From positions 1 through 64,000 of the forward strand of contig JAEPOM010000008.1 of the NCBI GenBank assembly GCA_017642885.1: a stretch of 64,000 nt of DNA. Reading direction: 5' to 3'. The stretch comes from Henriciella sp. (GTDB lineage: Bacteria; Pseudomonadota; Alphaproteobacteria; Caulobacterales; Hyphomonadaceae). The number at the start of each line of letters is the position of its first letter. Positions within the stretch are counted from its first letter, which is position 1. Below, one piece after another: positions 31,964-35,203 of this stretch. The position numbers and the translations under genes were made by a program. The notes beneath the pieces were generated by a model. That model had not been told where the DNA came from, did not search any database, and worked only from the letters and a program-made list of their open reading frames with translations.

Positions 31964-33340
31964 ATGAGCGAGACCCCAGATAAACCCGTCCCGGATGACG
32001 AAGAGCAGCGCGCGCAACTTGCGAGCGACTTGCGCGATGCCATCGATCTTGGGGAGGGAGACTGGATCCGCGACACGCTGGACGATATGCACCCTGCGGA
32101 TGCGTCGGACTTGCTGGAGCACTTGTCGACGGAGCGGTTTGAGGCAGCGGTTGAGCTGCTGGATGGCGAGCTACCTTCAGAAATCCTGATCGAGCTACGC
32201 GAAGAATATCGCGAAGACGCGGTTGAGATAATGAGCGACGAAGCGGTCGTCGAAGCGCTTGATGATCTCGAAACCGACGATGCGACAGCCGTTCTTGAAG
32301 ACCTCGATGAGGATCGTCGGGAGCGCATTCTTGATGAATTGGAGCCGGAAGACCGGGCTGTTCTCGAAGCGAGTTTCGAATTTGAGGAAGACACCGCTGG
32401 TCGTCTCATGCAGCGAGAATTCCTGGCGGCACCGGAATTCTGGACAATTGGGCAAACAATTGATTTTGCTCGAGATAATGCCGCCGACCTTCCAACCGAT
32501 TTCTACGAAATCTATGTGGTCGACCCGACAAACAAGCCCCTCGGATACGTCCTCCTGTCACAGCTCCTGCGAACCGGACGAGACGTTAAACTGGCCGATA
32601 TTATGGGGTCGTTCAACTCCGATATTCATGTCGATCAAGACCAGGAAGAAGTCGCTTACCAGTTCCAGAAATATGCGCTCGCTTCTGCCCCAGTGAAAGA
32701 TCATGAGGGTCGGCTCGTCGGGATGATTACAGTGGATGATATGGTCCACGTCATCCAGGAAGAAAACACGGAAGACCTCCTGGCGCTGGCGAACGTGTCG
32801 TCGGCGGATGGCTCGGACACCGTCTGGGAGTCGGTCAAAGCGCGTGCGCCATGGCTCGGGATCAATCTCATCACAGCCTTCGTTGCGTCTGCCATCATTG
32901 CTCTCTTTGAAGGAACGCTCGATCGACTTGTTCAACTCGCCATTCTGATGCCGGTCGTGGCCGCTCTGGCCGGCAACGCGGGCAGTCAGGGGCTCGCCGT
33001 CGCGGTGCGCGCCATTGCAGAGCGTGAAATGGAGGGCAAAGCCGGACGTCGCGCAGTCGTGCGGGAAACGCTTACCGGTGTGGTCAATGGTGGAATATTT
33101 GCGATCGGCGTGGCATTGGTCGCCCTGTTTTGGTTCCAGGACGTCAAACTTTCTATCATCCTGGGCGTCGCCATGTTTGCGAGCTTTGTCTGGGCGGGTG
33201 TCTCAGGAATTCTCGTTCCGCTGACCCTGAAACGTATGGGTGCGGATCCGGCCGTGGCGTCATCGGTCTTCGTCCTGACGCTTACCGACGTGATGGCATT
33301 CTTCAGTTTCCTCGGGCTCGCGACACTATTTTTGTTGTAA
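31964..33340 (+). CDS. mgtE: Magnesium transporter MgtE
   Basis: 458 residues in MgtE order: an acidic N-domain of helical repeats (about 25-145), two CBS domains (about 150-275), and five membrane helices (about 300-458) with the pore-lining GNAGSQGLAVAVRA motif. It conducts Mg2+ through the inner membrane; the cytosolic domains close it when Mg2+ is high. Stand-alone; the sigma-54-like site for the next gene begins just after its end. Confidence 0.95.
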   Translation: MSETPDKPVPDDEEQRAQLASDLRDAIDLGEGDWIRDTLDDMHPADASDLLEHLSTERFEAAVELLDGELPSEILIELREEYREDAVEIMSDEAVVEALDDLETDDATAVLEDLDEDRRERILDELEPEDRAVLEASFEFEEDTAGRLMQREFLAAPEFWTIGQTIDFARDNAADLPTDFYEIYVVDPTNKPLGYVLLSQLLRTGRDVKLADIMGSFNSDIHVDQDQEEVAYQFQKYALASAPVKDHEGRLVGMITVDDMVHVIQEENTEDLLALANVSSADGSDTVWESVKARAPWLGINLITAFVASAIIALFEGTLDRLVQLAILMPVVAALAGNAGSQGLAVAVRAIAEREMEGKAGRRAVVRETLTGVVNGGIFAIGVALVALFWFQDVKLSIILGVAMFASFVWAGVSGILVPLTLKRMGADPAVASSVFVLTLTDVMAFFSFLGLATLFLL

Positions 33341-33358: not shown

Positions 33359-33374
33359 CGGCGCATAGATTGCA
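33359..33374 (+). promoter_or_regulatory. Sigma-54-like promoter ahead of the spmX-like gene
   Basis: CGGCGCATAGATTGCA has GG (33360-33361) and GC (33372-33373) exactly ten bases apart, with TTGCA at the -12 end, close to the consensus TGGCAC-N5-TTGCA. Transcription would start near 33385, about 37 bases before the ATG at 33422. In Caulobacter, spmX is activated by TacA with sigma-54, which supports the reading. Confidence 0.5.
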
Positions 33375-33421
33375 CTCAACTCAGGAATGGATAGATAATC
33401 TGTCCCAAACCGGAGCAGGTG

Positions 33422-34627
33422 ATGGCATTGAATATGCGCACATCTCAAGCGGGACTTGACGTCATCAAGGCGTTTGAGGGGTTTCGCGCACGCTCAGAAG
33501 CATTGCCCAATGGTCGCTGGATCATTGGATACGGCCACATGCGCCGTGCTCGCCAGGGGATCCGGGTCAGCGAAACGGAAGCTGAGGCGATCCTCCGGGA
33601 GTACGATCTGCCGCCGGTTGAACGGTATGTGATGCGGTGCGTCCTCGCGCCGATGTCTCAAAACGAATTCGACGCGCTTGTCTCACTGGCGTTCAATATC
33701 GGTCCGAAAGCATTTGCCAGTTCAGACGTTGTGGCGGGTATCAATGGCGGAAATCGCCTCGATGCAGCCGAGTCGTTTGATCTCTGGCGCCGCGCCAAAA
33801 TTGGCGGCCGCATCCAGATTGTCGATGCTCTCGTCCGGCGACGCGCCGCCGAGAAGGCGCTGTTCCTGAATGCGCCAGGCAGGATGCCGGTGGCCTCGTC
33901 CAGGCTGTATCGCGCGCTGCACGATTCCGACGCGTTGTCCTACACGCCTGAACCACGTGAAATCCTGGTTGAGCATCATCCAGGAACACCTCAAAAACCC
34001 ATGCAGATCGACGATACGCCCGAACAACCGAACCGCACCGCAACAGAAGAAGCGGCAGAATCGGTACGCCAGCAAATGGTTCGCATCCTTGGCGAAACGC
34101 AGGACCAAAGTGAACGCGACGACTCAACCGACGGTGCGACGCCTGAAGAAATCACAGCAGCAATCTCAGAGCTAGCGGGTGAAGATCAGGCCCGAGGCGT
34201 CCAGAAATCCGTCTGGCCACAACGCGAAGATCTGCCGCCTCCGCCATTCATGGACGAGGACGCCTTCGACGCTGCGCCAGATGCAAACTTCGCAGCAGCC
34301 GAGCTGACTCCGGAAGTCATCGACGATTTGGAAGAGGTAGAAGTTTCACAAGACAGCATCAATCGCGCCATCGAAGTGAATGAGGCCATCGAAGCCGAAG
34401 AGAGAACGGGGAGCATCCTCGCCGCGCTTCCATTTGGTGTGCTGGCTCTGATCGGGGCTGTGCTGGGTGGATATGGTGTGGCGGGCCAGTTTGGCCTGAT
34501 CAACAGCCGAGAATCCGGGAACAGCGGCTTGGAGAACTTCTTGCCTATCTTCTTGATCTTGATCGGTCTGATCCTGCTCGGTGTGATGGGCTATTACTTC
34601 ATTCGAACATTGATGTCGGACGACTGA
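33422..34627 (+). CDS. spmX: SpmX-like polar protein: lysozyme-fold domain, acidic linker, two C-terminal membrane helices
   Basis: 401 residues from ATG 33422 (GTG 33419 adjoins). Residues 6-155 form a T4-type (GH24) lysozyme domain: IKAFEGF with the catalytic Glu at 19, then LPNGRWIIGYGH. The usual Thr before IGYGH is Ile (34), and no Asp stands where the catalytic one is expected. A Pro- and acid-rich stretch (170-330) leads to membrane helices at about 332-359 and 374-396. This is the architecture of SpmX, which in Caulobacter localises and activates the DivJ kinase at the stalked pole. A sigma-54-like promoter precedes it. Confidence 0.78.
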   Translation: MALNMRTSQAGLDVIKAFEGFRARSEALPNGRWIIGYGHMRRARQGIRVSETEAEAILREYDLPPVERYVMRCVLAPMSQNEFDALVSLAFNIGPKAFASSDVVAGINGGNRLDAAESFDLWRRAKIGGRIQIVDALVRRRAAEKALFLNAPGRMPVASSRLYRALHDSDALSYTPEPREILVEHHPGTPQKPMQIDDTPEQPNRTATEEAAESVRQQMVRILGETQDQSERDDSTDGATPEEITAAISELAGEDQARGVQKSVWPQREDLPPPPFMDEDAFDAAPDANFAAAELTPEVIDDLEEVEVSQDSINRAIEVNEAIEAEERTGSILAALPFGVLALIGAVLGGYGVAGQFGLINSRESGNSGLENFLPIFLILIGLILLGVMGYYFIRTLMSDD

Positions 34628-34708: not shown

Positions 34709-35203
34709 ATGTTTCGGTTGTCTTTGCTTTCATTCATGAGCCTCTGGTTTTCAGCGGCATCTCTTGCGCAAGAGGATGCACCGCCACTTTCCAGCACCGC
34801 AGCTGAAGCACTTGAGCAGTGTCTCGCGCAAGATGATGTCGAAACCTGTACCGGGGCTTGGGTCGCTCCGTGCAGCGAAGACGCACTGACAACGGTGGAT
34901 ATCCTTGCCTGCTACGCGCCAGAACTCGCGTTCTGGGAGGCGCGTTTGTCCACGGTTCTGGTTGAACTCGAACAGATATATGTCGAACTAGATCAATTCG
35001 ATGATGCAGCCCGCGCACTGGCACCGCGCTTGGAGATTTATCAGGAGCAATGGGAGGCTTGGCGCGCCGCCAAGTGTGGCTTCGAGTATTCTAAGTTTCG
35101 CGGCGGCTCGCTCGGCCGGATAACCCATGTGGATTGTCAGCTGACTGAAACTTCGACCCGGGTTGCGGAGTTGCGAGCGTTGCTGGAAGAAGCTGGTCTG
35201 TAG
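34709..35203 (+). CDS. Secreted DUF1311/LprI-like protein (lysozyme-inhibitor family)
   Basis: 164 residues with a signal peptide (about 1-20, ASLAQ). The mature protein has the DUF1311 pattern: Cys pairs, a long helix, and EQWEAWRAAKCGFEYSKFRGGS...CQL, in which the RxWxxxRxxxC segment is the family hallmark. LprI of Mycobacterium inhibits lysozyme, but most family members are uncharacterised. The gene sits directly after the lysozyme-fold spmX-like gene. It abuts, end to end, the convergent patatin-like gene. Confidence 0.65.
   Translation: MFRLSLLSFMSLWFSAASLAQEDAPPLSSTAAEALEQCLAQDDVETCTGAWVAPCSEDALTTVDILACYAPELAFWEARLSTVLVELEQIYVELDQFDDAARALAPRLEIYQEQWEAWRAAKCGFEYSKFRGGSLGRITHVDCQLTETSTRVAELRALLEEAGL

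Follow-up and report, generated by a model that had tools for sequence, protein, structure and literature searches.

The spmX gene and its surroundings

The window, a stretch of 64,000 nucleotides from the start of contig JAEPOM010000008.1 of a Henriciella genome, carries an spmX coding sequence on its forward strand (33422..34627), which opens with the ATG at 33422, has an alternative GTG start at 33419, and ends with a stop codon at 34627. The encoded protein has 401 residues, numbered here from the ATG. Its N-terminal part is a GH24 lysozyme-like (muramidase) domain (33431..33868, forward strand), identified by Pfam PF00959, by a profile match and by a PDB match: the Pfam Phage_lysozyme family covers residues 16–144 with an E value of 3.3e-30, and the top structure match is PDB 6h9d (E 1.3e-39). 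The best NCBIfam match is the SpmX equivalog NF051871 (LysLocSpmX), with 164.3 bits and an E value of 5e-48 over model positions 6–236 of 430. This score lies under the curated cut-off of 700 bits, which we take as having been fitted to close Caulobacteraceae copies. The closest named match comes from a Henriciella MAG, most of the nearest ones are from Henriciella or other Hyphomonadaceae, and a match is found in 98 of the 105 genomes of the family. The domain match, together with its conservation, rules out a chance origin of the reading frame. Within its own genome (3.66 Mb in 71 contigs), the SpmX-type gene is single in a search down to an E value of 10.

Downstream of the domain, the protein continues with an acidic, proline-rich linker (residues 152–333; 33875..34420, forward strand), delimited by eye from its composition and evolving faster than the domain, and with two C-terminal hydrophobic segments (residues 332–350, 34415..34471, and residues 376–394, 34547..34603, both on the forward strand) located by a Kyte–Doolittle scan. 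The preliminary description of the locus had proposed such a linker followed by two membrane helices, and composition and hydropathy agree with it. The same scan finds no hydrophobic segment ahead of the GH24 domain. Embedded in the linker is a conserved block (residues 211–251; 34052..34174, forward strand), with many invariant columns in an alignment of 14 Henriciella and Hyphomonas-group sequences. Helices are predicted at residues 207–223 and 241–251 in a low-confidence AlphaFold2 model only; this full-length model, computed from 14 sequences, has a mean pLDDT of 55, with values below 50 in the catalytic region, and is kept out of all statements on the active site. As described in an excerpt of PMC5347347, the proline-rich region of Caulobacter crescentus SpmX is required for oligomerization, possibly via a predicted isolated helix.

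The same arrangement recurs in relatives. A collection of 205 loci was reduced to 141 distinct domains, from which 10 phage enzymes and six other GH24 genes were removed, leaving 125 SpmX-type domains. At the threshold used, the proteins carrying them have two C-terminal hydrophobic segments in 96 cases, one in 23 and none in six, some of the short ones (L022, L099) ending at contig ends; a hydrophobic segment ahead of the domain occurs in 0 of the 125. Compared by description, SpmX of C. crescentus (CCNA_02255) and of Hyphomonas neptunium (HNE_1271) likewise have a GH24 domain with no leading hydrophobic segment, an acidic, proline-rich linker and two C-terminal membrane segments.

The conserved upstream neighbor of spmX is mgtE (31964..33340, forward strand; Pfam MgtE, MgtE_N and CBS). 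Of 80 named loci from several families, 78 have it upstream in the same orientation, and at the remaining two (L101 and L117) mgtE gave no match. The 80 loci are those matching the query best, so that counts taken from them lean to the query's kin. Elsewhere, mgtE is upstream of spmX in 7/7, 28/30, 14/16, 5/7 and 0/7 cases in families f1 to f5, respectively, counts that cover about 0.5–1.5 kb of upstream sequence, so a more distant mgtE would escape them. It is also upstream in the three loci whose domain is identical to that of 6h9d. Estimated from tblastn ends, the gap between the two genes mostly measures about 70–200 nt in the named loci; in 11 of them, which belong to Aquidulcibacter, Phycosocius, Robiginitomaculum, Euryhalocaulis and two other Hyphomonadaceae, it widens to about 1 kb. 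No paper in the literature searched was found to bring SpmX and MgtE together.

Neighbors other than mgtE vary between loci. In the flanks covered, which reach 4 kb at most and are often shorter, the 80 named loci have the downstream patatin gene in 19 cases, the carboxylase in 8, lprI in 5, and fabH, ihfA and merR in one each; mgtE, lprI, patatin and BamE-like genes were named by Pfam, and the other neighbors were read from their translations. In the window, a gene of the LprI lysozyme-inhibitor type (34709–35203; PF07007, E 9.5e-15) directly follows spmX. Its Pfam name prompted us to consider a functional pair of the two genes, and we rejected this idea. An lprI-like gene directly follows spmX in one named locus (L048, 53%) and lies farther away in four (L051, L053, L068 and L087); since it is seen near spmX in only 5 of 80 named loci, we do not count it as part of the finding.

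Between mgtE and spmX lies the element CGGCGCATAGATTGCA (33359..33374, forward strand), recovered by a pattern scan, with its first base 63 nt upstream of the spmX ATG. It has the GGY-N7-TTGC spacing, which we take to be the –24/–12 pattern of sigma-54. Taken alone, CGGCGCATAGATTGCA could be due to chance, the pattern with one mismatch having 16 matches in the window against 11.2 expected. Across relatives, the element is not a chance occurrence. Of 117 relatives that do not belong to family f5, 114 have GGY-N7-TTGC in the 160 nt preceding the start, and 96 have it at a distance of 55–80 nt, as compared with 42 of 4680 dinucleotide shuffles; the rows share kinship, so these counts are not independent trials. 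Replacing the spacer of 7 by 4, 5, 6, 8, 9 or 10 leaves 9, 0, 1, 0, 0 and 14 matches, respectively, within 160 nt in the 117 loci, the spacer of 8 serving as a negative control, and the upstream regions of family f5 have none (0/7). A scored scan with a loose criterion is positive for 114 of the 124 upstream regions and for 13.8% of mononucleotide shuffles. TacA acts together with sigma-54. The rpoN gene is present in the genome of the window, and in Caulobacter spmX is given as a TacA target in an excerpt of PMC7010744.

Residues at the lysozyme catalytic positions

GH24 enzymes carry the catalytic motif E-x8-(D/C)-x5-T (PMC8228626, excerpt). In the window copy, the glutamate is retained as Glu19 (codon 33476..33478), the Asp/Cys position nine residues on is occupied by Leu28 (33503..33505), and the Thr position, 15 residues after the glutamate and directly ahead of the IGYGH motif, is Ile34 (33521..33523), all three codons being on the forward strand. 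The motif of active endolysins is thus not matched. The preliminary description had read a GH24 phage lysozyme domain with Glu19 in place, isoleucine instead of threonine before IGYGH and no aspartate at the expected position, and had concluded that two of the three catalytic positions are altered; the Pfam match and the alignment bear out each of these points. Phage endolysins of GH24 (P22-type enzymes, T4 lysozyme) share the fold family and the catalytic glutamate with the window copy and differ from it in keeping E-x8-D/C-x5-T (PMC8228626, excerpt) and in having neither the linker nor the C-terminal segments.

These substitutions are clade-wide. Glutamate occupies residue 19 in all 125 distinct SpmX-type domains, and the histidine of IGYGH is kept in 96 of the 96 SpmX-type rows of our tree. 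Residue 28 is leucine in 102 domains, threonine in 10, alanine in four, methionine in three, isoleucine in two, aspartate in two, and glutamine and glycine in one each; in one of the two sequences with aspartate (L181), the loop is longer and the alignment uncertain at this point. Residue 34 is valine in 41, threonine in 37, isoleucine in 28, leucine in 14 and methionine in five. The threonine is therefore missing in the majority (88/125), and both partner residues are missing in 86/125. We note that the window copy had previously been thought to tell how far detoxification has gone outside Caulobacter, an expectation that these counts do not sustain. Because close relatives have the same altered positions, the copy is not unusually detoxified, and the non-Thr state extends to Caulobacteraceae, the SpmX domain of known structure, 6h9d, having methionine. 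The two substitutions characterize the family rather than one genome, and in place of the idea of greater detoxification outside Caulobacter stands a map of which SpmX proteins retain which catalytic residue.

On this map, the named loci of Henriciella (16/16), Hyphomonas (16/16, with Ile or Leu in all), Robiginitomaculum (6/6) and Ponticaulis (2/2) have a residue other than threonine at position 34; Hirschia is mixed (one Val, one Thr), and Aquidulcibacter has threonine in 2/2. Family f2 keeps threonine in groups g10 (6/6 loci), g21 (1/1) and g30 (1/1), and its group g53, with 15 loci, has methionine in six, serine in one and threonine in eight. Three of the g53 loci match the 6h9d chain at 100% identity.

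The 6h9d chain is named SpmX-Mur-Ae (PMC11594527, excerpt), the muramidase domain of Asticcacaulis excentricus SpmX (PMC9961711, excerpt). Like the window copy, it keeps the glutamate, has leucine at the Asp position and lacks threonine at the Thr position, where the two differ in having methionine and isoleucine, respectively. An excerpt of PMC11594527 calls the catalytic triad highly conserved in homologues including SpmX-Mur-Ae, whereas the chain as aligned here has Leu at the Asp position and Met at the Thr position.

Three further observations concern individual genomes of the collection. The protein at L187 (family f2, group g2), which has the SpmX architecture, carries aspartate at the Asp position but has valine in place of the threonine, which inverts the usual pattern. 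Two genomes of group g20 have a second GH24 gene (L190, L192), with an N-terminal hydrophobic segment and leucine at the Thr position. At an E value of 1e-10, an SpmX-type domain was not found in 12 of the 14 genomes of group g71 and in four genomes of group g21 with a completeness of 99–100%, which suggests loss or strong divergence of SpmX in these parts of family f2.

Phylogenetic placement and selection

For the domain tree (112 rows, 151 columns), the three catalytic columns were taken out; the endolysins included by name are phage enzymes. The window copy falls within a branch of 89 SpmX rows (SH-aLRT 98), which is enclosed in a branch of 96 rows (SH-aLRT 93) made up of the same 89 and seven proteins from family f5. 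Inner branches are often weak, 26 of 109 being starred. Parsimony requires at least nine changes between Thr and non-Thr among the 96 SpmX-type rows, a rough count because of the many weak inner branches, and the direction of change is taken from the threonine of the outgroup.

The preliminary description had named a grouping of the domain with active endolysins as the outcome that would speak against SpmX. When the window copy was constrained to group with the ten phage enzymes and the GH24 row L191, the resulting tree was rejected (AU test, p 0.008). A prophage or gene-transfer-agent endolysin at this locus would account for the GH24 fold of the domain and for its match to the NCBIfam model of the gene transfer agent endolysin BgtA (Bartonella, NF058676), which at 83.4 bits lies under the cut-off of 315. 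The tree and the AU test, in which phage enzymes stand for the endolysins, the mgtE synteny and the distribution over 98 of 105 genomes led us to reject it, and among the five neighbors scanned with Pfam, four gave matches, none of them to a phage family. The ten phage enzymes themselves keep Asp and Thr in nine cases and have Cys and Ser in one. We regard an endolysin origin as very improbable.

In sum, the reading frame at 33422..34627 is an SpmX orthologue in a Henriciella-type genome, as the preliminary description had proposed: it has an N-terminal GH24 domain with the conserved glutamate; hydropathy places a linker and two membrane segments after the domain and none ahead of it; the tree sets it within SpmX and away from endolysins; and mgtE and the sigma-54-type element stand upstream. 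The use of the mgtE context and of the upstream element as a test for SpmX is a comparative criterion of the present analysis, not a published definition, and the two features provide simple marks by which orthologues of SpmX can be recognized across most of the order. The gene is a normal copy of spmX, whose product is a one-time phage lysozyme taken over by stalked bacteria as a scaffold at the cell pole.

The altered positions could also be read as the drift of catalytic residues in a decaying gene, a reading that has next to no probability and that we rejected on the rates of substitution. In comparison with two relatives that are 79–80% identical overall and 96–97% identical in the GH24 domain, dN/dS is 0.015–0.022 for the domain, 0.12–0.14 for the linker and 0.21–0.32 for the membrane part, and the upstream element is conserved. 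The GH24 domain is under strong purifying selection and is the most constrained part of the protein, despite the loss of two catalytic residues.

Outside this group, the genomes of family f5 (L177–L184, L188, L189) have one to five GH24 matches each at the profile cut-off used. Two of their proteins (L183, L184) have the E-D-T residues intact and a single C-terminal hydrophobic segment. The seven SpmX-like proteins of f5 have no mgtE neighbor in the flank examined and no sigma-54-type element, and may represent an early or separate branch.

Role of the GH24 domain

A role of SpmX in the polar localization of DivJ is described for the relatives C. crescentus and H. neptunium (excerpts of PMC5347347 and PMC7200025). 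The window copy has isoleucine instead of the GH24-motif threonine. In C. crescentus, the lysozyme domain binds PopZ and DivJ; the substitution E19R abolishes binding and E19A makes localization more bipolar; lysozyme activity was not detected, and the protein was argued to be largely cytoplasmic (all from the excerpt of PMC5347347). The disordered region of SpmX sequesters DivJ (PMC8849385, excerpt). In H. neptunium, polar DivJ foci depend on SpmX (PMC7200025, excerpt), and cells without SpmX have no morphological defect (legend S5 of the same paper), so that the importance of the scaffold to this family may be small. As the 16 Hyphomonas loci have Ile or Leu at residue 34, an SpmX without the threonine very probably does the polar DivJ job in H. 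neptunium, judging from the loci of the genus. All 41 genomes examined, including that of the window, have a gene of the PopZ family (PF10691).

Taking together the SpmX identity, the residue states, the purifying selection, the synteny, the upstream element, the PopZ-family gene and rpoN, we consider it highly likely that the single-copy spmX of Henriciella-type Caulobacterales encodes a membrane-tethered scaffold with roles toward PopZ and DivJ, in which Glu19 serves mainly fold or assembly. PopZ and DivJ binding, the polar position, the cytoplasmic side and the absence of strong muramidase activity are carried over here from the published relatives. The phage-derived GH24 domain would most likely sit on the cytoplasmic side and bind PopZ at the old pole, the linker would aid self-association and DivJ sequestration, and the two C-terminal segments would form the membrane anchor. 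The lysozyme site would have lost its Asp equivalent, a loss common to nearly all SpmX, and subsequently, in several lineages, its Thr equivalent as well. The part assigned to Glu19, in fold or assembly and not in hydrolysis, is suggested by its conservation alone, and fits a glutamate that is fixed while its two partner residues are free to go. A scaffold with little or no hydrolysis would be the simplest reading of these features.

Alternatively, SpmX might have kept a weak activity, as a muramidase or a transglycosylase, that depends on Glu19 and is of importance to the polar cell wall. The invariance of Glu19 (125/125) and of the IGYGH histidine (96/96) is compatible with such an enzyme, and the account of the phage origin of SpmX by Randich et al. 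(2019) reportedly has an attenuated activity retained; if this were true of copies without the threonine, the reading of little or no hydrolysis would be wrong. Weighing the other way, both partner residues of Glu19 are replaced in the window copy, as in the 86 domains counted above, no hydrophobic segment precedes the domain by hydropathy, and the excerpt of PMC5347347 has no activity detected for C. crescentus SpmX and argues for a location mostly in the cytoplasm. We regard a functional residual activity as unlikely, and favor the scaffold.

How a scaffold with such a site could have arisen can be outlined tentatively, in a scheme that we put forward at somewhat less than even confidence. 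Detoxification may have taken place in two steps: the aspartate would have gone early, at the root of the family, and aliphatic residues would later have taken the place of the threonine on several independent occasions. Glu19 would meanwhile have been fixed for a task other than catalysis (fold and assembly with PopZ, DivJ and itself), so that most natural SpmX proteins would act purely as scaffolds, their lysozyme site being a fossil. The remaining interest of the window copy is comparative, and lies in what appears from the alignments to be a fixed Glu19 with Asp and Thr partners that are free to go. Thr-keeping and Thr-less SpmX proteins, found even within one genus, provide natural test pairs for residual muramidase activity.
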